A stretch of 64,000 bases of DNA from Thermoanaerobaculia bacterium (GTDB taxonomy: Bacteria > Acidobacteriota > Thermoanaerobaculia > Multivoradales > JAHZIX01), in NCBI GenBank assembly GCA_027069135.1, contig JALXFE010000539.1:1-64000 (forward strand). The letters run 5' to 3'. The stretch's first letter is position 1, and every line of letters begins with the position of its first letter. The translations under genes and the position numbers were made by a program. The notes below the pieces were generated by a model that was not told the DNA's origin, made no database searches, and saw only the letters and a program-made list of their open reading frames with translations. Positions 865 through 37,401 of this stretch are shown piece by piece.

Positions 865-2526
865 ATGCGGCCCCGCAGTCGAGCCCTGACGGTCGCGTCA
901 GGGATCCTCTCAAGTCGCCTCCTGGGGTTCGTCCGCGAGCGGGCAGTGGCCCATTTTCTGGGGATCTCCGCGTTTACCGACGCCCTGACGACGGCCTTTC
1001 GGGGCCCCAACGTGCTCCAGGTCCTACTTGGCGAGCAGACCCTCTCAGCGGCGTTCATCCCGGTCTATTCAGAGCTCTTGGAAGAGGGGCGGGAAGAGGA
1101 GGCGGGGCGGTTTGCCGGGGCGATCTTCGGACTTCTGCTTGCCGCCGCCGCTACGCTGAGCCTCCTCGGAGTCCTCCTGGCGAGGCCATTGGTGGCCGTC
1201 CTCGCGGCCGGATACCTCCAGGATGCCGCCGCCGTGGCTGCAGGGGAAGCGACCGTGGACCGCTACGAGTTGGCGGTCATGGCGGTGCGCTGGGTTTTCC
1301 CGATGATGGCTTTCTTGGTGCTCAGTGCCTGGACTCTCGGGGTGCTCAACAGCCACCGGCGTTTTTTCTGGCCCTACTTCTCGCCGGTGCTGTGGAATAT
1401 TTCGATCCTTACGGCCCTGCTGAGCGCCGCCGGGGTCGTCGGCAAACCCTGGTGCGATTCCTCGGGCTCGGAAATCGATTTCAAGACCTGCTTGCTCCTC
1501 GCGGCCTGCGCCGGTGCCCTGATCGGAGGAGTCCTCCAGTTCGCGGTGCAACTGCCCCTGGTATTTCGCCTGATGAAGGGCTTCCGGTTCTCCCTATCGA
1601 CTCGCGTAGTGGGGGTTCGCCGGGCCCTGCGAGCCTTCGGTCCCGCCTTCGCCGGCCGTGGGGTGGTGCAGGTTTCGCTCTATCTGGATCAATTCCTGGC
1701 CTCCCTTGCGGCGGTGGGAGCGTTGACCGGCATCCGGTGGGGCTCGTTCCTCTACGCTCTGCCGATCAGTCTCTTCGGAATGTCCATCGCCGCCTCGGAG
1801 CTTCCGGAGCTAGCTCGCCTCAAAGACAGCAAGGATGAGCTCCAGGAGCGAGTGGAGGTCTCCCTGCGCCGCATGGCCTTCCTGGTGGTACCGACCACCG
1901 TCGGCTATCTCGGGCTGGGATTTCTCCTGGTCGGCGCCCTCTATCGGACAGGGGAGTTCACCGTCGAGGATAACTGGTTGATCTACTTCGTCCTCGGGGC
2001 CTACACCTTCGGGCTGCCCGCCAGCACGGCCTCCCGTCTTCTACAAAATCTCTTTTTCGCCATCGGCGATACGCGAACTCCGGCCCGTATCGCTGCCCAG
2101 CGGGTGGTCCTTTCAGCAGCCGTGGGAGCGCTGCTGATGTTCTGGCTCGACCGCTACAAGGTCCTTGGCTTGGTGGAAGTCTCGGGACCGCACCGGGGCC
2201 TTTTCTTGGGCGCCGTCGGTCTGGCCCTGGGGTCCGCTCTCGGTTCGTGGTTGGAGATTCTTCGGCTCCGCCAGGCTCTGCAGCGACCTCTTCCGGAGTT
2301 TCGGCTACCGATTGTTGCGAGCTCCAAGATGGGAGCGCTCTCGCTTGCGGCTCTCATCCCCGCGGTCCTGCTCTGGTGGCGGCTGCCACCGTTTCACGTC
2401 GCGGCCACGGCGGTTCTCGTCGTCGGGGCTTACGCTGCGCTCTACCTGGTACTGGCGACTTGGGTCCGGGTGCCGGAAGCTCAGGAGTGGCTGGAGGGGC
2501 TCCGTCGCCGCCTCGGTCGGCGCTGA
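865..2526 (+). CDS. murJ: Lipid II flippase MurJ (MviN family)
   Basis: MurJ moves lipid II, the undecaprenyl-linked peptidoglycan precursor, from the inner to the outer face of the cytoplasmic membrane. The 553-residue product has the usual family length and starts with the typical MurJ N-terminus: an Arg-rich head, then SSRLLGFVRERAVAHFLG and FRGPNVLQVLLGEQTLSAAF, followed by an acidic EELLEEG-type loop. Many hydrophobic segments follow, consistent with about 14 transmembrane helices of the MOP exporter fold. The ATG at 865 lies 4 bp after the preceding stop and has only a weak Shine-Dalgarno sequence, so translational coupling to the upstream gene is likely. The start is supported by alignment of the N-terminus with the family. 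Confidence 0.95.
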   Translation: MRPRSRALTVASGILSSRLLGFVRERAVAHFLGISAFTDALTTAFRGPNVLQVLLGEQTLSAAFIPVYSELLEEGREEEAGRFAGAIFGLLLAAAATLSLLGVLLARPLVAVLAAGYLQDAAAVAAGEATVDRYELAVMAVRWVFPMMAFLVLSAWTLGVLNSHRRFFWPYFSPVLWNISILTALLSAAGVVGKPWCDSSGSEIDFKTCLLLAACAGALIGGVLQFAVQLPLVFRLMKGFRFSLSTRVVGVRRALRAFGPAFAGRGVVQVSLYLDQFLASLAAVGALTGIRWGSFLYALPISLFGMSIAASELPELARLKDSKDELQERVEVSLRRMAFLVVPTTVGYLGLGFLLVGALYRTGEFTVEDNWLIYFVLGAYTFGLPASTASRLLQNLFFAIGDTRTPARIAAQRVVLSAAVGALLMFWLDRYKVLGLVEVSGPHRGLFLGAVGLALGSALGSWLEILRLRQALQRPLPEFRLPIVASSKMGALSLAALIPAVLLWWRLPPFHVAATAVLVVGAYAALYLVLATWVRVPEAQEWLEGLRRRLGRR

Positions 2527-3267: not shown

Positions 3268-4572
3268 ATGTCCCAGAAAACGCCGTTGCGTCTCGTCGTG
3301 TCCAACCTCGCTTTCGTCTTGAGCCTCGCCTTGGGGGCGGTCCCCCCGGCGGCGGCGAGTCAGACTGTGAAGAAAGCGGTGGAGCTCCACAAGGGCGAGA
3401 TTCTCGAGCTGCGGCATCAGATCCACCAAAATCCGGAGCTGGGGAACCGGGAGCTCGAGACGGCCAAGCTGGTGGCCGGGCACCTGCGGAACCTGGGCTT
3501 CGACGAGGTGCGCACCCAGATCGCTCATACCGGTGTCGTCGGGATCCTGAAAGGTGGCAAGCCGGGAAGAGTCGTCGCCGTGCGAGCGGATATGGACGCC
3601 CTGCCGGTGACCGAGGCTACAGATTTGCCGTTCCGCTCGGAGGTCAAGACCGAGTACCTGGGGCAGGAAGTCGGTGTCAGCCACGCCTGCGGCCACGATG
3701 TTCATACCGCTGTGCAATTGGGAGTCGCATCGGTCCTGGCCTCGCTGCGGGATGAAATTCCCGGCACGGTGGTCTTTATCTTCCAGCCAGCGGAAGAGGG
3801 GCCTCCGCCGGGAGAGGAGGGGGGCGCGGACCTGATGGTCGCCCAGGGCGCGATGGAGAATCCGCGGCCCGAAGCGGTCTTCGGTCTCCACACCTTGTCG
3901 ACCCTGGACGTCGGCCGCTTGGGCTATACCGTGGGGCCCGCCTTCGCTGCGGTCGATCATTTCCGTATCGAGATCCTCGGCGCCCAAAGCCACGGTGCAG
4001 CCCCGCACCAAGGGGTCGATTCGGTGGTGGTGGCGGCCCAGGTCATCACGGCCCTCCAGACGATCCGTTCCCGTAACCTCGACCCCTTGGAGCCCAGCGT
4101 GGTGACGGTTGGAATCGTTCGCGGCGGCACCCGTTTCAACATCATCCCCGGCTCGGTGCATCTCGAAGGCACGGTCCGGACCTACCGTGCGGAGGTCCGA
4201 GATACCGTGGAACGGCGCATGGGAGAGATCCTCGCCGGCATCACCGCCGCAGCTGGTGCGCGCTTCGAGCTGGATTACGAACGAGGTACCCCCTCGACGA
4301 TCAACGACCCGGGCCTGGCGGCCCGCACGGTTCCCACCCTGAACCGTATCGCCGGTGAGGCGAAGGTGGAGGAGCTGCCTCCGACCATGGGGGGCGAGGA
4401 TTTCGCCTACTTCGCCAACGAGGTCCCCGGCTTCTATTTTCGTCTGGGGGTCCAGAAGCCCGGAACCGTCTCCGGAGGCCACCACACGCCGGAATTTCGT
4501 GCCGACGACGGAGCCATTCCGTTGGGCATGGAGGTCATGTCCAATATTCTTCTGGATTACCTCCGGCAGTAG
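3268..4572 (+). CDS. Exported M20-family amidohydrolase (amidase/carboxypeptidase)
   Basis: The product is a 434-residue zinc amidohydrolase of the M20D type (hippurate hydrolase, N-acyl-L-amino-acid amidohydrolase, IAA-amino-acid hydrolase relatives). Residues 1-31 form a signal peptide (basic head, SNLAFVLSLALGAVPPAAA, cleavage near AAAS-Q). Metal-binding motifs are visible: VSHACGHDVH, which supplies the Cys, His and Asp ligands, FQPAEEGPP with the catalytic Glu, and GGEDFAYF near the C-terminus. The lid domain carries the HGAAPHQGVDSV dimerisation motif. The ATG at 3268 has GAGGAG at 3255-3260, which beats the upstream in-frame TTG at 3223. The natural substrate cannot be read from sequence; a periplasmic role in cleaving N-acylated amino acids is likely. 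Confidence 0.88.
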   Translation: MSQKTPLRLVVSNLAFVLSLALGAVPPAAASQTVKKAVELHKGEILELRHQIHQNPELGNRELETAKLVAGHLRNLGFDEVRTQIAHTGVVGILKGGKPGRVVAVRADMDALPVTEATDLPFRSEVKTEYLGQEVGVSHACGHDVHTAVQLGVASVLASLRDEIPGTVVFIFQPAEEGPPPGEEGGADLMVAQGAMENPRPEAVFGLHTLSTLDVGRLGYTVGPAFAAVDHFRIEILGAQSHGAAPHQGVDSVVVAAQVITALQTIRSRNLDPLEPSVVTVGIVRGGTRFNIIPGSVHLEGTVRTYRAEVRDTVERRMGEILAGITAAAGARFELDYERGTPSTINDPGLAARTVPTLNRIAGEAKVEELPPTMGGEDFAYFANEVPGFYFRLGVQKPGTVSGGHHTPEFRADDGAIPLGMEVMSNILLDYLRQ

Positions 4573-4595
4573 CCCACCCGAGTCGACGAACCCGG

Positions 4596-5900
4596 TTACC
4601 AGCTCTCGAGGAAACCTCGTAGGGCCTCTTCCTTCGGAGGCAGAGGGAGGGAGCGGCGTGGGCGCTCCAAGCACTCCGCGAGGCGTGGGGGAACCGGGAT
4701 AGCCTGATCGATGAGCGGTTCCACATGCTCGCGGAACTTCACCGGGTGGGCGGTCGCCAGGACGATGCCGGGAAGATTCTCTCCGCTACGTTGCCGGGTC
4801 TCCTCGAGAGCACGGTAGCCGACGGCGGTGTGAGGATCGAGGATATAGCCGGTGCGTCGAAAAACCGAGCGGATCGTCTCCCGAGTCTCGGCGTCGCTGC
4901 ATCGAAACCCCCGGATCTGTTCGCGAATCGCCGCGTCGTCGCCGTCGAAGAGATGGCGGATTCGTTCGAAGTTGCTCGGATCGCCGACGTCCATCGCGTT
5001 GGAGATCGTGGCCACGGAGGGCCGGGGCTCATAGAGGCCGGATTCCAAGAATTCCGGCACCACGTCGTTGGCGTTGGTGGCGGCGACGAAAGAGGCCACC
5101 GGTGCTCCTAAGCGTTGGGCCAGGAGCCCCGCCGTCAGATTGCCGAAATTTCCGCTGGGGACGACGAAGGTGGGCGGGGCCGAGCCTTGCGGTAGCTGCG
5201 CAACGGCATGGAAGTAGTAGAAGGATTGCGGGAGAAGCCTTCCGAGGTTGATGGAGTTGGCCGACGTCAGGCGCAGCCTCCGGGTGAGTCGGGTGTCGGT
5301 GAAGGCCGCTTTCACCATCCGTTGGCAATCGTCGAAGGTACCCGCCACCGAAAGGGCCTGGACGTTATTCCCCAGAGTCGTGAACTGGCATTCCTGAACC
5401 GGGCTGACCTTTCCTTCCGGAAAGAGCACGGCCACCCGGGTTCCGGGGACGCCCAAGAATGCCTGGGCGACCGCGCTCCCGGTGTCCCCGGAGGTCGCGG
5501 CGAGGATGGTCAAGGGTCCGACGCCTCCCTCGTCCAGGAAGGAGAAGAGGCGGGCCATGAAGCGCGCACCAACATCCTTGAAAGCGAGGGTGGGGCCGTG
5601 AAAGAGCTCCAGGATAAAGCGTCCGGGCTCGACCTCGATCAACGGTACCGGGAACGATAGCGCTTCGCGAACGATGCCCTCGAGGGTGGCCGGCGGAATT
5701 TCCGGCAGGAGATTCTTGGCCAGCTCGACCGCTCCTCCCGGCCATGGCGCTTCCAAGATCCCTTTGAGGGCTCCCGAGGACAGGGTCGGGAGCTCCCGGG
5801 GAAGGTAGAGACCACCGTCCGGCGCCAGGGCCTGAAAGAGGGCGGATCGAAGCTCCACCGGGGGAGCCTCGCCACCGGTGCTGACGAACCTCTTCTTCAT
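4596..5900 (-). CDS. thrC: Threonine synthase
   Basis: This PLP enzyme converts O-phospho-L-homoserine to threonine and phosphate, the last step of threonine synthesis. The 434-residue product has the class II threonine synthase layout: N-terminal YLPRELP region, PLP-lysine motif GPTLAFKDVGARFMARL, the phosphate-binding ATSGDTGSAVAQAF and, further on, VPSGNFGNLTAGLLA. It is the last gene of the thrA-asd-thrB-thrC operon; its ATG overlaps the thrB stop by 4 bp. The end converges with the M20 gene only 23 bp away, and I see no convincing hairpin terminator in that gap. Confidence 0.95.
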   Translation of the reverse strand: MKKRFVSTGGEAPPVELRSALFQALAPDGGLYLPRELPTLSSGALKGILEAPWPGGAVELAKNLLPEIPPATLEGIVREALSFPVPLIEVEPGRFILELFHGPTLAFKDVGARFMARLFSFLDEGGVGPLTILAATSGDTGSAVAQAFLGVPGTRVAVLFPEGKVSPVQECQFTTLGNNVQALSVAGTFDDCQRMVKAAFTDTRLTRRLRLTSANSINLGRLLPQSFYYFHAVAQLPQGSAPPTFVVPSGNFGNLTAGLLAQRLGAPVASFVAATNANDVVPEFLESGLYEPRPSVATISNAMDVGDPSNFERIRHLFDGDDAAIREQIRGFRCSDAETRETIRSVFRRTGYILDPHTAVGYRALEETRQRSGENLPGIVLATAHPVKFREHVEPLIDQAIPVPPRLAECLERPRRSLPLPPKEEALRGFLESW

Positions 5901-17683: not shown

Positions 17684-17784
17684 TTCAGTTCCTTGTGGAG
17701 ATCCGTTAGGAAAAGCGCACAAACGCCCAGATTACCACATCCCGAGACGTTGCTTCGGTGGTGGTGAGTAGGGAAGATGGACAT

Positions 17785-17817
17785 CAGCCAATATTCGGCA
17801 GCCAATATTCGGCTGCC
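17785..17817. repeat. REP-like tandem/palindromic repeat beside the Y1 transposase gene
   Basis: CAGCCAATATTCGG occurs twice head to tail (17785-17798 and 17799-17812). The second copy lies in a hairpin: GGCAGCC (17797-17803), loop AATATTC, GGCTGCC (17811-17817). Imperfect palindromes like this are typical substrates of REP-associated Y1 transposases. The element lies upstream of the preferred transposase start. Confidence 0.5.
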
Positions 17818-17908
17818 CCTTCCGGAAATACCCCGAATTCCGCCGTTTTCCCCAAATTCTCGCCCCGGATCTGCAAGATCCTGCTCCTACCTTCCGTCCT
17901 TAAGGAGT

Positions 17909-18859
17909 ATGAAGCACTTACCTAGGTATCTTCCGCCCGGCACCTTCCTTGCCGAAATCACCCAACGCTGCCTCCTGGGTTTTCATCTGCTGAGACCCTC
18001 CAAGAGGCTCAATCTCCTCATCGCGGGCGTCGTAGCTCGGGCCCTGGAGAAGTACCCCGTCGAGGTCATCGGCCTGGCCGTGCCCTCCAACCACTATCAC
18101 CTGATTGCCACCGGTACGAGCCAGGAGGATCTCTCCAAGTTCATGAACTTCGTCTCCTCAAACGTCGCCCGGGAAGCGGGAAAGATCCATGGTTGGGAGG
18201 GCAAGCTGTGGGCTGGACGCTACGATTGCACGCCCATCACCGATGAGGAGGAAATCCAGGTCAAACGGCTCAAATACCTGCTCAGCCAAGGCTGCAAAGA
18301 GGGGCTCGTCTCGAGTCCAACTCTGTGGCCCGGGGTTCACTGCGCCAAAGCCCTCATGAACGGCACCGGGATTCCCGGTGTCTGGGTCAATCGCACCGCC
18401 CTTTATAAGGCGCGGCTCAAGAAGAAGGGGCGGGAGAAGGTCCGGCCCATCGACTTTGAAGAAGATCTCCTCCTCAAGTTCTCGCCCCTACCATGTTGGG
18501 CCCATCTGGCGCCGGAGGACTACCAACAGAGAATCCGGGATCTGGTTCGGGAGATCGAAGAAGAAACCGCCGCTCACCACCGGGAGGCGGGGACAAGCCC
18601 GTTGGGCCGCCGCGCCGTGCTCAAGAGGGATCCCCACTACCGACCCAAAGCCCTCGAGACCTCTCCGGCGCCCCGGGTCCATGCCGCCACCCGGGAGGCC
18701 CGCAAGAGGTTCATGGATGCTCTGCGCATCTTTCTCAGAGCCTACCGGGCGGCTTCGGCGCGGCTTCGAGGCGGTGAGCCTTTAGCAGAGTTCCCCGGAG
18801 GTTGTTTTCCACCCCACGGGCCATTTGTCCCCTTCGGCGACAGCCTGCACCCGGCGTAA
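17909..18859 (+). CDS. Y1/HUH transposase, REP-associated (RAYT-like)
   Basis: This 316-residue protein matches the Y1 transposase superfamily (IS200-like, TnpA_REP). The HUH metal motif is intact as SNHYHLI (His62, His64). The likely catalytic tyrosine is Tyr123 in LKYLLSQGCKEGLV, aligned with the YIHLNPVRAGL motif of relatives. KLWAGRYDCTPI corresponds to the conserved WQRRYYS segment. The C-terminal 120 residues are basic and unassigned. The frame opens at 17777, but the ATG at 17909 starts where homology begins (MKHLPRYLPPGTF) and has AAGGAG nearby, although only one base away. Enzymes of this kind nick single-stranded DNA at REP hairpins. No insertion-sequence ends are visible, so it looks like a single-copy domesticated transposase. 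Confidence 0.8.
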   Translation: MKHLPRYLPPGTFLAEITQRCLLGFHLLRPSKRLNLLIAGVVARALEKYPVEVIGLAVPSNHYHLIATGTSQEDLSKFMNFVSSNVAREAGKIHGWEGKLWAGRYDCTPITDEEEIQVKRLKYLLSQGCKEGLVSSPTLWPGVHCAKALMNGTGIPGVWVNRTALYKARLKKKGREKVRPIDFEEDLLLKFSPLPCWAHLAPEDYQQRIRDLVREIEEETAAHHREAGTSPLGRRAVLKRDPHYRPKALETSPAPRVHAATREARKRFMDALRIFLRAYRAASARLRGGEPLAEFPGGCFPPHGPFVPFGDSLHPA

Positions 18860-31600: not shown

Positions 31601-34600
31601 CTGCCGGCTCGAGCTTCGAGAGGCTCCTGGTAACGGTCAAGGAAGGGACGCTAGGGATGCTCGCCCACAGCCGGACTCCCTTTAGGAGCCTGGTGACCGA
31701 CCTCGAGCCCCCGAGGGGCGCCGGAGTGAACCCCTTCTTTTCGATTCTCTTCTCCTGGCAGGGGACCGGCATCGCGCTCGAAAACGGGGGACACCGGACT
31801 CCTGGAGGTCTGGTCCTGGGGCGCGGCGATTCCGAGACTTTCTTTGCCGGGGCTGCGGCCCGATCCCTCCGGCTACCGCCTAAGGATGCAGCCTTCGATC
31901 TGAGTCTCCTGGCGGCACCCGACGGCGAAGATCTTCTCCTATGCCTGGAGTACCGGACCGAGCTCTACGATGGGACGTCGATCGCCCGTCTAGCCGGCTG
32001 CCTCTCGAGGCTCCTGGAACAATGTCTGACCAAGCCCCACAGGGATGTAGGAGCGTATTCCCTGCTCTCCCGCGCTCAATCCCAGCAGATCGTCTGGGAA
32101 GCCGGGGATACCGCGCGGCGTTTCGGTGGGGGAACCCTTGTCCAGGAGATTTTTGGCCAGGCCCGGCGCCGTCCTCGAGCGGTCGCCCTGCGGCATGGAT
32201 CCCGCGAGCTGTCTTTCCGGGAACTCGCTACCGGTAGCCTGCGGATCGCGGCGGCTCTTATGGCCCGCGGTATCGGACCCGAGAGCGTCGTGGCCCTGGC
32301 CCTGGAGCGAAGTCCGGAGTGGGTCCTGGGAGCTCTCGGCACTCTGCTGGCTGGGGCCGCGTTTCTGCCTCTCAATCCAAAGGAGCCCGTGGAGCGCTTG
32401 GAGCTGATGGTGGAAGACGGAGCTCCCGATCTGGTGCTCTTCGCGGGGTCCGACCCGGTAGGGAGGAACGGCCTCGCCGGCCTGGATCTTCTCATAGAGC
32501 TGCCGTCGGCAGTGCTGCGGGAACCGCCGCCGGAGGCCCCGGGCCAACTGGCCTACGTCCTGTTTACCTCCGGCTCCACCGGGCGGCCGAAAGGGGCGAT
32601 GAATACCCGCGAGGGTCTCTTCAATCGCTTGTGTTGGATGCAGAGCACCTATCGCCTGGACCCGGAGGACCGGATCCTGCAGAAGACTCCCTTGACCTTC
32701 GATGTTTCCGTGTGGGAGGTCTTCTGGCCTCTGATGGTCGGAGCCCGGTTGGTCTTGGCACCGGAGGGCGCGCATCGGGATCCTCGGCGGCTTGTGGAGC
32801 AGATCGTCTCCGAGGGGATTAGCGTGGTCCACTTCGTGCCGTCCTTGTTGGGGGCGTTTCTGGCGGAGCTAGCGCCGGAGGAAGTGCCCCCGGCACCGTC
32901 CTTGCGCCTGCTGGTGGCCAGCGGCGAGGCCCTCACCGGGATCCTTGCGGGACGCGTGCGCGAGCGCTTCGCCGGGAGTCTGCGATTCGAGAACCTCTAC
33001 GGGCCGACGGAGGCCGCCATCGACGTGACGGCTTACACGGTCCCCATGACCCCGTCCCCCGGCCCGGTACCCCTGGGCCGCCCCGTCGCCAACACGACGG
33101 TGCACGTGCTGGATCGACGGCTGCAGCCCCTTGGGTTGGGAATTCCCGGAGAGATGTTCATCGGTGGCATCCAGCTCGCGAGGGGCTACCGGGGGGATGC
33201 TCGAAGGACCGCCGAAGTGTTTCTCCCGGATCCCTCCGGTGAGATGGGCCGGCGCCTGTATCGGACCGGGGATCTCGGGGCTCGCCGACCGGATGGCACC
33301 CTGATGTTTCTGCGGCGCCGGGACGATCAGATCAAGGTCCACGGGATCCGCATCGAATTGGGGGAGGTGGAGGCGGCGCTCTGCGCCCATCCGCAGATCG
33401 AGGAAGCCGCCGCAGCTCTCGTCCGAGGGCAGGAGGACGATTCCGAGGGGAGGCTACTGGGGGGTGGCTTGCGCTACTTCTCCGGTCCGGGTTCGCCGCA
33501 GGGGCTCGAGGGGGCTGCTCCCAGGTCGAGACTCTTGGCCTATTTTGTCCCGACGAGGCCGGGAGCCGTCGATCGGGGGGAATTGCGCAGGTTCCTGCGC
33601 CGCCGCCTGCCAAAGGCATCGGAGCCGCAGGTCTTGATCCCCATATCTCGGCTTCCGCGCACCGCAAGCGGCAAGGTGGACCGCTCCGAGCTCGTGGCCT
33701 CTTCTGCGCGGCTGCGCACTGCGGAGGCTCCCTACGTGGCGCCTCACTCAGAGCAGGAGAGGGTCCTGGCCCGGGTTCTCGAATCGGTGCTCGAGGTTCC
33801 TCGGGTGGGGTCGGAGGACGATTTTTTCTCTTTGGGAGGGGATTCGATCCTCAGTCTGAAGGTTCGTGCCGACCTAGAAGCGGGAGGATGGGAGCTGGGG
33901 CTCGACGCATTTCTCGAGGAGCGGACGGTGGCACGAATGGCGCGCCTCATGGTGTCCACCGCAAGACGGCTGCCGGATCTCAACCCGGGCCCGCCGGTAG
34001 AAGCCCCGTTCCACGGGCTCCGGGAGGAAGACTTAGCGCTCCTGCCGGAGGGGCTCGACGACGCCTATCCCCTGTCGAGGACCCAGAGCGGGGTCATCTT
34101 TCATAGCCAGTTCGACGCGGCCTCCTCGATGTATCGGGATCTCTTCCTGGCACGCTTCGTCGGATCTCTCGTTCCGAAGCTTCTGAAGAAGGCCCTGCAG
34201 GCGACGGTGGACCGGCATCCCATGCTGCGCACCACCTTCGATCTCGAGAGCTTCTCGGAACCTCTGCAGTTGGTGCATCGGCAAGTGAGCGTGGAGCTGT
34301 TCCACGCAGATCTTTCCGCCCTAGGCCTCAAGACTGCCGACGGTGTACGAGCTATCGAGACATGGATCGAGGGAGAGCTCGCCGTCCCCCTCGATTGGAC
34401 CCGGGCCCCGGTGCCGAGGTTTTCTGCCCTCGGCTCGACGGCGGGGGGGTTCTGGTTCGTGATCAGCTTTTTCGATGCCCTGCTCGACGGTTGGAGCGCC
34501 GCCTCCCTCGCCCAGGAGGTGATCCAGGCCTACGATGCGCTCCTGACCGGGGAGGTCCCGGTCGGGCAAGATCCGCCGATCGGAGGATACCGCCGGTTCG

Positions 34601-37002
34601 TCTCCGCGGAGCTCGATGCCTTGGCTTGCGCCGAGGAGCGAGAGTTCTGGGAAGACCGGTTGGAGACAGCGCCCTCCGGAGAGTGTCTCCCCAAGGAAAA
34701 GGGCCGTACCGCCGACGGCCTCGTGGCCGTTTTGGACACGGAGTTCCCGGAGGCCCTGGTAGCCCGCCTGGAGACGTTGGCCCAGGCCGGTCGGACGGGG
34801 CTCAAGGAAGTGCTCCTCACCGCCCATCTCGTGGTGCTCTCGGCCTTCTGCGGGCGCCGGGCCCTGACCACCGGATTGGAAGTTCACGGCCGATTGGAGA
34901 TTCCCGGCGGGGAACGGGTCCTCGGGATGCACATGAATATCCTGCCGTTTCCGATGACCTTGGGAGGGGGTACCTGGAGGGAATTCCTCGAGAAGGTTCG
35001 GGACCGGGAGAGGGAGTGGCTAGGCCACCGGCGCTTCCCCTTCGTCGAGATGGCCCGGGGACAAGACGGCATGGTCCTGGAGACAGTCTTTAACTTTACC
35101 CATTTCCACGTACTGCGCTCGGTCGCGGCGCTGGAGCGTTTGGAATTGCAGGAGGCCTTCGGGTTCAATCAGACGAGTTTTCCGCTGCGAGCGGACTTCA
35201 ACCGTCATCCTCTGACCGGTCGGCTTCACCTGTCGCTGACCGTTCGCCAGGAGTCTCTGGGGCCCGTCCGGCATCGACGACTGATCGAGAGCTACCGCCG
35301 ATGCTTGGTGGAGTGGACGGCGAATCCACAGGCGAGCTACCTCGAGTTTTCGACCCTGGGGCCGGCGCAACGGCAGCAGATGCTTTGCGAGTGGGGGGGC
35401 GGGGCCGTCCCGCGGCAGGCCGTGGCTTCGTTGCCGGAGAGGTTCTTCGAGCAGGCTTGCCGGACACCGGAGCGGAGGGCTCTCGAGATCCTGGGAGAAT
35501 CCGGCGTCACCTACGAAGAGTTAGCCGGTCGGGTGTGGTCCCTGGCGGCGACCTTGGAGAGGGAAGGTTGCTCGGCCGGGGCCGTGATGGGGATTCTCTC
35601 CGGCCCTTCGGTCGCCTACGTGACCGCGGTGCTCGCGGTGCTCGTGGCGGGCGGGACGTTCCTGCCCTTGGGGGTGAAAGAGCCCCAGCGACGCCTCGTA
35701 GAGCTGATGCACCGAGGGGGGGCACGGCGAATGCTCGTGGAGCCGGGCCGGGAGGTCCCGTCGTCCCTCGAGCGGCGAGCCCTACCGATCGATGAGGGCT
35801 GGGTGGGGGAAAGTGCAGAGTCGAGGCATCGAGGGACTCCCCAAGATATCGCCTATCTGTTCTTTACTTCCGGGTCTACCGGAACGCCGAAGGCGGTGGC
35901 CGTATCCCATGGGGCCTTGGCTCGTCTCCTGACGGCCCTTTCGGAGACCCTGGACGTTCGTCCCGGGGAGCGCTGGTTGGCTTTGACGGAACCCACCTTC
36001 GATATTTCTTTAGTCGAGCTTTTCCTACCCCTTCTCCGAGGTGGGTGCAGCGTCCTGGCGCCGACGGGGATTTCCCGGGAACCGGTTGAGCTTGCCCGGT
36101 TGATCGCCGAGGCCGATCTGGACGCCGTCCAAAGCACGCCGGCGATCTGGCAGTCCCTGGTCGACGTGGGCTTCAGTGGGCCCCGGGGCTTGCGAATTCT
36201 CTGCGGTGGCGAGGCCCTGCCCCCGGACCTGGCGGCGCAGCTTCTGAGCCGCGGCGGGGAGGTGTGGAATCTCTACGGTCCCACCGAGGCGACGGTGTGG
36301 GCTACCGCGAGGCGACTGCGGCCGGCGGGCGCCGTGGACTTGGGTCGCCCCCTACCGGGGGTTCAAATCTACGTCTTGGACGCCGGCCTTCGGCTCCTGG
36401 GGGAGGGCACCGAAGGGGAGCTCTTCATCGCCGGTGGTGCCTTGGCCACCGGGTATTGGGGGGACGCTCCCTCGACGGCGGTGAGCTTTCTTCCGGATCC
36501 CTTCTCCGAGGATTCCGGCCGTCGGATGTACCGGACCGGGGATCGGGCCCGATGGTCAGCGGCCGGCCGGCTGGAGTTCCTCGGCCGTCTCGACGGGCAG
36601 GTCAAGATCCGCGGGATTCGGGTCGAGCCGGGGGAGATCGAGGCGGCTCTCGAGGATCTCGCCACCGTCCGGCGAGCCCTCGTCCTCGCGGAGGAGATCG
36701 CACCGGGACATAGAGGTCTCCTGGCTTATGTCGAGCTCGAGGAGGGGAGCTCGATCTCGCCTCGAGAGATGCGTAGCTTCTTGCAAGGTCGCTTGCCGAG
36801 CTTCTTGATCCCGTCCCGGATTTTTGTGGTACGTTCTTGGCCGTTGACGCACCATGGCAAGGTAGATCGTGGACGATTGCCGAAACCTCTGCGTCCACGT
36901 CCCCCGGAAGAAGTTCTGGTCTCCCTCATCGATCGGTTGGATGCGATGACGGAGGAGGAAGCTCGGTCCCTCCTGGAATTGGGCCCCGAGTCCCAGAATT
37001 GA
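28681..37002 (+). CDS. Lipopeptide NRPS: FAAL-ACP-C-A(Ser)-PCP-C*-A(Gly), no terminal PCP
   Basis: This 2773-residue synthetase opens the assembly line. A fatty-acyl-AMP ligase (about 10-560; LQYTSGSTGRPKG, LPPFHDMGLVGGLL, GRLKDLIILRGRN) activates a fatty acid and loads the ACP (Ser611). C1 (about 670-1110; His799-His800, HHIVGDLWS) should acylate the first amino acid. A1 (about 1150-1665) reads as DVWHVSLID, a serine code; PCP1 uses Ser1722. C2 (about 1790-2230) has Phe1931-Asp1932 where HHxxxDG requires two histidines. A2 (about 2255-2745) has intact core motifs and code DIVQLGLVW, close to glycine. The protein then ends after a short acidic tail with no carrier domain. The ATG at 28681 lacks a good ribosome binding site; the ATG at 28699 is an alternative. 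Confidence 0.93.
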   Translation: MCSEGEMPGDFGSSTLIRVLRERARSQADTTVYTFSADGESIGGTSSYQNLYERTSALALGLRRQGLEGQRVVLALPAGFDFACAFLACLMAGVVAVPLPAAPRRRGRLAGVAADCAAQAVWQRGERESLGLRELTCVGLLADAAKGGDPRGSELEVHPDEVAFLQYTSGSTGRPKGAVITHGALVANLEMIRLSFQLTPKDVVGSWLPPFHDMGLVGGLLSPLWSGVPAVLMPPLSFLSKPYRWLKMIETFGVTVSGGPDFAYRLCVSRVSPEQRQDLDLSTWRLAFSGAEPIRSSTCDAFLQAFSPSGLPPRSFLPCYGLAEATLLVSAGEPGAAQRVFPGEPGGSSTAVSCGVPASAVRIRIVDPKTRRRIGDGEEGEVWVASPALAAGYWNLPPRAEDPFVSTPHSWGPEEEPARRWLRTGDLGVEREGQLYITGRLKDLIILRGRNLHPEDLETHALAAHESLAEAQVAAFGVPAGSEDTEGEFAVVVLSPARIRRREVSGAAEEIRRSVRRKLEERLQVEVREVLLVRPGSIPLTSSGKVRRRRARELYLQGAFARLGGRRPRAPKVGEPRDALAWLQKFLGERIGEAPEAVDAHRTLGDFGLDSMGMTLVQHGLEREFSVRIPLETLLAGSSLAFLAELVGGNPPGAGPYRVEVPREEPEGWRPSEGQEALYFLQQAHPESTAYHLATALRIEAPIGEGDLRDALEAVVRRHDALQVGFRSVPSQLRPKLERLSPGQAASLLVEDAREWTRPQVRRGLAEAIARPFDVGTGPLLRLHLWRRSEGDVLLLVLHHIVGDLWSVALLMSELSKRLRPAPAAPERSVPAPRKLNDEPRGPSYYSWVEAQKDWQESPVGRVAAAFWRRRLTPLPPAAELPPDRPRNGRGSSSGGAFHTPLGTQLMARLEPFARCRGMTPYMVLMAAVQVLLARGSGLQRFAVGTLAAEREGAPTASMVGYLINPLVAVAEVPAGSSFERLLVTVKEGTLGMLAHSRTPFRSLVTDLEPPRGAGVNPFFSILFSWQGTGIALENGGHRTPGGLVLGRGDSETFFAGAAARSLRLPPKDAAFDLSLLAAPDGEDLLLCLEYRTELYDGTSIARLAGCLSRLLEQCLTKPHRDVGAYSLLSRAQSQQIVWEAGDTARRFGGGTLVQEIFGQARRRPRAVALRHGSRELSFRELATGSLRIAAALMARGIGPESVVALALERSPEWVLGALGTLLAGAAFLPLNPKEPVERLELMVEDGAPDLVLFAGSDPVGRNGLAGLDLLIELPSAVLREPPPEAPGQLAYVLFTSGSTGRPKGAMNTREGLFNRLCWMQSTYRLDPEDRILQKTPLTFDVSVWEVFWPLMVGARLVLAPEGAHRDPRRLVEQIVSEGISVVHFVPSLLGAFLAELAPEEVPPAPSLRLLVASGEALTGILAGRVRERFAGSLRFENLYGPTEAAIDVTAYTVPMTPSPGPVPLGRPVANTTVHVLDRRLQPLGLGIPGEMFIGGIQLARGYRGDARRTAEVFLPDPSGEMGRRLYRTGDLGARRPDGTLMFLRRRDDQIKVHGIRIELGEVEAALCAHPQIEEAAAALVRGQEDDSEGRLLGGGLRYFSGPGSPQGLEGAAPRSRLLAYFVPTRPGAVDRGELRRFLRRRLPKASEPQVLIPISRLPRTASGKVDRSELVASSARLRTAEAPYVAPHSEQERVLARVLESVLEVPRVGSEDDFFSLGGDSILSLKVRADLEAGGWELGLDAFLEERTVARMARLMVSTARRLPDLNPGPPVEAPFHGLREEDLALLPEGLDDAYPLSRTQSGVIFHSQFDAASSMYRDLFLARFVGSLVPKLLKKALQATVDRHPMLRTTFDLESFSEPLQLVHRQVSVELFHADLSALGLKTADGVRAIETWIEGELAVPLDWTRAPVPRFSALGSTAGGFWFVISFFDALLDGWSAASLAQEVIQAYDALLTGEVPVGQDPPIGGYRRFVSAELDALACAEEREFWEDRLETAPSGECLPKEKGRTADGLVAVLDTEFPEALVARLETLAQAGRTGLKEVLLTAHLVVLSAFCGRRALTTGLEVHGRLEIPGGERVLGMHMNILPFPMTLGGGTWREFLEKVRDREREWLGHRRFPFVEMARGQDGMVLETVFNFTHFHVLRSVAALERLELQEAFGFNQTSFPLRADFNRHPLTGRLHLSLTVRQESLGPVRHRRLIESYRRCLVEWTANPQASYLEFSTLGPAQRQQMLCEWGGGAVPRQAVASLPERFFEQACRTPERRALEILGESGVTYEELAGRVWSLAATLEREGCSAGAVMGILSGPSVAYVTAVLAVLVAGGTFLPLGVKEPQRRLVELMHRGGARRMLVEPGREVPSSLERRALPIDEGWVGESAESRHRGTPQDIAYLFFTSGSTGTPKAVAVSHGALARLLTALSETLDVRPGERWLALTEPTFDISLVELFLPLLRGGCSVLAPTGISREPVELARLIAEADLDAVQSTPAIWQSLVDVGFSGPRGLRILCGGEALPPDLAAQLLSRGGEVWNLYGPTEATVWATARRLRPAGAVDLGRPLPGVQIYVLDAGLRLLGEGTEGELFIAGGALATGYWGDAPSTAVSFLPDPFSEDSGRRMYRTGDRARWSAAGRLEFLGRLDGQVKIRGIRVEPGEIEAALEDLATVRRALVLAEEIAPGHRGLLAYVELEEGSSISPREMRSFLQGRLPSFLIPSRIFVVRSWPLTHHGKVDRGRLPKPLRPRPPEEVLVSLIDRLDAMTEEEARSLLELGPESQN

Positions 37003-37401
37003 ACCGGTCCCCCCCAAGATTTTTTCTCGCTCTATTACGGCGAGAGTTTAAGGTCTGCGGCCTCGAGAGCTCAGCAGCGGGACGGTCTCGTACCGTTTTT
37101 CTGGAATTTTATTCCACTCAGAGATATTTGTCTTTCGTTCAGAGCGAAGAACACCCCAGATCCCCTTGATTGCGGGCTTCAGGAGTTCGCGAAAGTCACC
37201 CATTTGCATAGGTTTATGATGGATACATAAAGAAATTGTTGTCCCCATCGGAAGACCTCTTTGCACTACAAGCTGTTGAGGAAGCGAAATCAGCTTAGGA
37301 GTGCGACGATTTTCACCAAAGAGTAATTAGATTTTATGTAAAGGGAAATAACTTTTTTCTCTGGGAGAGTCTTGCCCGGAGTGAATGGGCCCAAATCTCG
37401 A
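37003..37401. other. AT-rich non-coding gap inside the NRPS locus
   Basis: About 400 bp without a supported gene separate the first synthetase from the free-standing C domain. It is the only sizeable gap in the locus. Two 60-base stretches counted by hand (37201-37260 and 37321-37380) have 37-38% G+C, against roughly two-thirds in the flanking genes. No carrier-protein motif (LGGDS-like) is found here in any frame, and no convincing promoter, RNA gene or transposon end. It may hold a promoter for the downstream genes or mark a recombination joint. Confidence 0.6.

Follow-up and report, generated by a model that had tools for sequence, protein, structure and literature searches.

The synthetase P0001 and its neighbouring genes

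The window, a stretch of 64,000 nucleotides from a Thermoanaerobaculia bacterium, lies on a 98,814-bp contig and contains an NRPS cluster. Its first synthetase, P0001, ends in a second condensation domain (hereafter C*) followed by an adenylation domain (A2; Table 1). The reading frame of P0001 shows no internal stops on translation; the FAAL label given to its first domain comes from sequence features and position, and the specificity codes of its adenylation domains were read from the alignment by motif position. The original prediction had described Phe–Asp in place of the two histidines of HHxxxDG in C*, followed by an A domain with intact core motifs and a glycine-like code. The translated motif indeed reads S1929-F-F1931-D1932-A-L-L-D1936-G1937-W-S, with DGWS unchanged, and the core motifs and code of A2 are equally recognisable. 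In the three relatives of the same family (G001, G002, and G003), the A2 code is DILQLGLVWK, a glycine code.

The gene following P0001 encodes a standalone C domain, P0002, which clusters in the tree with the standalone C domains of cyanobacteria (22 rows, SH-aLRT 97); the start points of all of them nearly coincide, just past the expected site of an FPEAELS linker. In the cyanobacterial loci L030, L031, L035, L039, and L042, the standalone C domain is contained within an ORF of about 810–820 aa, which is the gene after the discrete PCP, and the C-terminus of these ORFs (GDVLLLDN...HGR) has, by eye, the look of a TauD/SyrP-type dioxygenase. At the dioxygenase-like position, P0002 has only a short basic tail. 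The first C domain of P0003 (39039–40355) is degenerate, with the motif LPSLCAD, and its counterpart is degenerate in most relatives; the intact C domain of P0002 and this degenerate one form a conserved tandem. P0004 (46967–54622) begins with a second FAAL-like–ACP unit, which gives the cluster a second apparent entry point for fatty acyl groups. Upstream of the cluster there is an IS200-like (Y1_Tnp) transposase-related gene (17777–18859).

Table 1. Features of the second module of P0001 and its surroundings; positions refer to the window, except for the last row, which refers to contig C611 of the same genome.
Feature	Position	Strand	Description
P0001	28681–37002	+	NRPS, 2773 aa: FAAL-like–ACP–C–A(Ser)–PCP–C*–A(Gly)–tail
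A1	32137–33732	+	Serine-type code DVWHVSLIDK; would charge PCP1, the donor site of C*
PCP1	33763–33948	+	Final carrier of P0001 (PF00550)
C*	34057–35379	+	Condensation domain, CmodAA (dehydrating) type, Asp for second His
Phe1931–Asp1932	34471–34476	+	Position of HH of HHxxxDG in C*
K2042–H2049	34804–34827	+	KEVLLTAH in C*; CmodAA [K/R]SVLLAAH signature
E2110...R2117–R2118	35008–35034	+	Glu and Arg pair in C*, conserved in CmodAA
A2	about 35431–36927	+	Glycine-type code DIVQLGLVWK; core motifs A1–A10 recognisable
C-terminal tail of P0001 (EVLVSLIDRLDAMTEEEARSLL)	36901–36999	+	Predicted two short helices
Gap	37003–37401	+	Non-coding, AT-richer; cyanobacterial relatives encode a discrete PCP of about 160 aa here
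P0002	37402–38904	+	Standalone C domain, no PCP; SHLVADG, catalytic second His kept
P0003	38901–46955	+	C(b)–A(Ser)–PCP–E–C–A(basic-type code)–PCP; E assigned by eye
Discrete PCP	about 1440–2042	-	Beside lon

The second condensation domain of P0001

The residues that distinguish CmodAA domains, namely the [K/R]SVLLAAH signature, a Glu, and an Arg pair, have been described (PMC11342130). In C*, K2042, H2049, E2110, R2117–R2118, and D1936–G1937 are all kept; the catalytic second His is absent, and Asp1932 stands in its place. The donor side of a CmodAA domain is expected to bring Ser or Thr from the upstream module, and the code of A1 is of the serine type. Among solved C structures, the nearest to C* by sequence are McyA (252 bits) and AmbE-CmodAA (165 bits), with the next at 91, and the same two rank top in the PDB by fold when compared with the AlphaFold model of C* (pLDDT 88.6), which was built from 26 relatives. 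These two domains, together with Crz1-C2 of corallorazine, share with C* the K...LL.AH, E, and RR residues; unlike C*, with FD for HH, AmbE and McyA keep HHxxxDG.

In the tree of these domains, 87 CmodAA-type rows are split from three other C domains, the whole outgroup, with an SH-aLRT of 100. The C* domains of the window's family (4 rows, SH-aLRT 99) fall inside a 30-row clade with the C* domains of cyanobacterial split modules, and a different CmodAA clade of 10 rows holds the sister family f7 (G009/G017) and, on a long branch, the C2 domain encoded by pAMDE1, a plasmid with a bleomycin-like cluster (PMC3777966). One 3289-aa protein encoded in the f7 cluster contains two more CmodAA-type C domains (G009:C12 7576–8916, L176, and 4348–5688, L177).

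The replacement of the second His recurs among these domains. Across 80 surveyed GTDB loci, for which one of two search patterns favoured D/E at this site, all split-module relatives, and many others besides, carry D, N, T, or E in its place; AmbE, McyA, and others retain it. From its sequence and model, C* is a well-folded CmodAA domain, which would dehydrate its donor residue. The view of a dead C domain in a skipped unit is not supported, given that the CmodAA residues are kept, the orthologues also swap the second His (for an acid or N/T), and the A domain is undecayed in four genomes.

A candidate carrier protein for the second module

The original prediction held that no PCP is present before the stop of P0001 or in the following gap, and this has been borne out. 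In P0001, Pfam matches only the FAAL-side ACP and PCP1 as carriers, with nothing following A2; in the gap, the PCP profile has no match at E ≤ 10 in any plus-strand ORF of at least 40 aa, and no free carrier with PF00550 is found on the whole contig. A PCP hidden in the tail of P0001 or in the gap was also considered and gave no match at E ≤ 10, the tail being a conserved post-A helical element. Fold prediction of the terminal residues gives two short helices, and this tail is conserved in every split relative, pAMDE1 included, also where the PCP comes on the next gene; it is a probable docking element. Another candidate, a module without an A domain elsewhere in the cluster as the customer of A2, was not found, the NRPS carriers of P0001, P0003, P0005, and P0006 each having their own A domain. 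Genome-wide, a carrier lies within 400 bp of 56 of the 66 AMP-binding_C matches; the other ten correspond to eight small ORFs (492–684 aa, the size of acyl-CoA ligases), one match in an 8116-aa ORF, and A2.

Relatives of the cluster share a conserved split layout, FAAL–ACP–C–A(Ser)–PCP–C*–A / PCP(–C) / C... (a slash marks a gene boundary). The arrangements C*–A / PCP–C or C*–A / PCP / C have been found in 17 cyanobacterial loci, in the sister family G009/G017, and in pAMDE1. The cyanobacterial order is C*–A / PCP / C or C*–A / PCP–E / C, and that of the sister family and pAMDE1 is C*–A / PCP–C. Among these genomes, which are drafts or MAGs except for pAMDE1 and some cyanobacteria, the PCP is absent from the split position only in the window's family (4 of 4 genomes: G000, that of the window, to G003). 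Comparison of orthologous clusters thus shows that relatives outside the family encode a PCP after the A domain and that only the window's family has lost it there. In G001, G002, and G003, the P0001 homologue ends in the same way and is followed by a non-coding gap of about 250–350 bp and a separate standalone C gene. The split module with its PCP on another gene is already a known kind, and the variant peculiar to the window's family is the lack of this PCP in the cluster. When plasmids were searched with C*–A and P0002 as queries, only general NRPS relatives were returned.

Away from the cluster, contig C611 of the same genome carries a gene for a discrete PCP of matching type. Over 162 aa, this PCP shares 40% identity with the in-cluster PCP of the Nostoc locus L021 (E 4.5e-34), and it has an N-terminal LSPxKRxLL helix and a C-terminal SPADFPEAELS linker, as in the cyanobacterial discrete PCPs. 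Orthologues that are 54% identical to it are present on G002:C38 and G003:C34, and all three have in common the LSxxKxxLL helix and the FPEAELS linker. Of the 72 genomes of the order, only G000, G002, and G003 have a full-length discrete copy (0 of 68 genomes outside the family). G001 has no discrete PCP, but its assembly also lacks the orthologue of the neighbouring lon gene, with only paralogues of 56–57% present; this absence is therefore uninformative, and the count stays at three of four genomes in one family. The PCP gene is divergent from lon in G000 and G002. In G002 and G003, it is directly followed by a carbamoyltransferase gene (L130 5607–13213; L131 2664–5930), so that the PCP could serve another pathway. 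In G002, the genes that follow also include those of a 775-aa protein with no Pfam match and of a MacB/FtsX-type permease.

When the discrete PCPs were compared with the carriers of each locus, the in-trans PCP outscored PCP1 in 18 of 21 loci; since these loci are not independent and PCP domains are short, with weakly resolved relationships, the comparison is supportive and not a test. The discrete PCP is unlikely to derive from the PCPs of the cluster itself, whose mean score against it is low, 118 vs 176 for in-trans PCPs. A second discrete PCP-like ORF of this genome lies on contig C73, among other NRPS genes. On the grounds of homology, of co-occurrence in one family, and of there being no better candidate, we propose the C611 PCP as the partner of A2. 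The alternative offered by the original prediction, an adenylation domain charging a carrier in trans, is in this way strengthened: the boundary between A and PCP is found in many relatives, and a matching unlinked PCP in three of the four genomes points to such a loading.

Proposed working of the unit and alternative readings

The C*–A(Gly) unit is probably not dead but the first part of an NRPS module that is divided between genes and uses an unlinked PCP in trans. In the proposed sequence of events, A1 would charge PCP1 with Ser, which would be acylated from the FAAL–ACP start, and C* would dehydrate the acylated Ser on PCP1 to dehydroalanine. A2 would adenylate Gly and load it onto the discrete PCP, whose extended N-terminus would dock with the helices of the A2 tail. 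Then C*, with Asp for the catalytic His, would probably join the amine of Gly to the Cbeta of dehydroalanine by an aza-Michael addition, without an ordinary amide bond; and P0002, in which the His is kept, would accept the chain from the PCP in trans and move it on towards P0003. The carrier gene, adjoining or fused to the C gene in most relatives, would in the window's family have its place elsewhere in the genome. The complete picture, in which the carrier of the second module has been exported beside lon and a CmodAA domain with an acid for His makes a dehydroalanine–glycine C–N bond instead of a peptide bond, is put forward tentatively, as a possibility a little short of an even chance. 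If it is true, product prediction based on the cluster misreads the class, and a dead-looking unit is active with a carrier outside the cluster; the orphan pair of one A domain and one PCP could be a model for trans recognition. In addition, natural His-to-Asp/Asn/Thr/Glu CmodAA domains in several phyla would offer a handle on the role of this His in amide formation vs conjugate addition, with relevance to the initial steps of bleomycin synthesis, a question of long standing.

The bleomycin family provides the analogy for conjugate addition, which is the probable reaction of C*. The C2 domains of BlmVI, TlmVI, and ZbmVI lack both His and have been linked to conjugate addition (PMC11342130), and in the bleomycin hypothesis the amine of Asn attacks a Ser-derived dehydroalanine (PMC10880069). 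The C2 motif of pAMDE1 reads SEVSMDG in the sequence. The BlmVI/BlmV-type proteins of this plasmid (AMAD1_RS21265 / RS21260) resemble P0001 in the order FAAL–ACP–C–A–PCP–C*–A, in the same helical tail, and in the lack of a carrier at the end; here, as in the bleomycin family, C* is without HH and the partner is on the next gene, and a further C–A protein in that family counts as another likeness to the window's cluster. On the other hand, the next gene of pAMDE1 encodes PCP–C and P0002 is a C domain alone, the residue of A2 is Gly here and Asn in the bleomycin type, and C* is in the other CmodAA clade. A bleomycin-type conjugate-addition domain by descent is rejected on this position in the tree, and because the two C domains belong to different clades, the type of reaction is assigned to C* by analogy and not by membership.

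Loading in trans is known from capreomycin synthesis, where CmnI, a T–C protein, is loaded by CmnA-A1 and binding needs an extended N-terminus of the carrier (PMC12400406). The arrangement proposed here from sequence is similar in that the carrier would be a separate protein charged in trans by an A domain; unlike the T–C protein CmnI in its cluster, carrier and C domain are here separate genes and the carrier lies outside the cluster. The same precedent, one A domain for a second carrier in trans (PMC12400406), would also allow A2 to serve a carrier of the cluster that already has its own A domain (PCP1 or a PCP of P0003), in a doubly served or iterative manner, the C611 PCP being unrelated. 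This would explain why A2 is conserved in four genomes in a cluster with no A-less module, but it is unlikely: all NRPS carriers of the cluster have an A domain in cis, the codes of P0001 and P0003 are Ser or basic-type, and the other split relatives all possess a dedicated additional PCP. Improbable as well is a vestigial unit, whose PCP was lost in the family and whose Gly step is skipped, P0002 handing the chain of PCP1 straight to P0003. The absence of the PCP from its position in all four family members and of both His from C* would agree with it. Against it, A2 keeps its core motifs and glycine-type code and diverges at about the rate of C*, slightly faster than A1, with dN lower than dS in every pair, which argues against a skipped unit; moreover, the CmodAA signature residues and the post-A tail are kept, and the second His is also missing in relatives that have the PCP.

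Direct use of the Gly-AMP from A2, with no carrier and with its amine as donor in the active site of C* or at P0002, is very improbable: the sole point in its favour is that the cluster encodes no carrier, all split relatives outside the family encode one here, and we know of no precedent for carrier-free use of an aminoacyl-AMP in C–A modules of NRPS. Finally, an artefact (a missing PCP, an assembly joint at 37002, or an indel at HH) can practically be dismissed even in a draft of 626 contigs, because the same ending, the gap, and a D at the second His recur in the independently assembled G001, G002, and G003, and the gap lies inside a 98.8-kb contig.

For the split module with a trans carrier, another close likeness is that of the cyanobacterial FAAL–NRPS clusters (for example, L021 of Nostoc, L023 of Westiellopsis, and L042 of Nostoc carneum), which share with the window the domain order and the clades of C* and of the standalone C domain. 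Unlike the window, these clusters keep a discrete PCP gene in place, their A2 is mostly of the His type (DSALIAEVWK), and their A1 is often of the Thr type. DSALIAEVWK is listed as a His code in Table 1 of PMC3777966; across L018–L042, most of the A domains that follow C* carry it, and the A1 codes are of the Thr or Ser type. These loci apparently represent an uncharacterised lipopeptide family. Two variant loci were also observed: L032 has a frame break between C* and A, and in L047 a PCP follows C* with no A domain detected.
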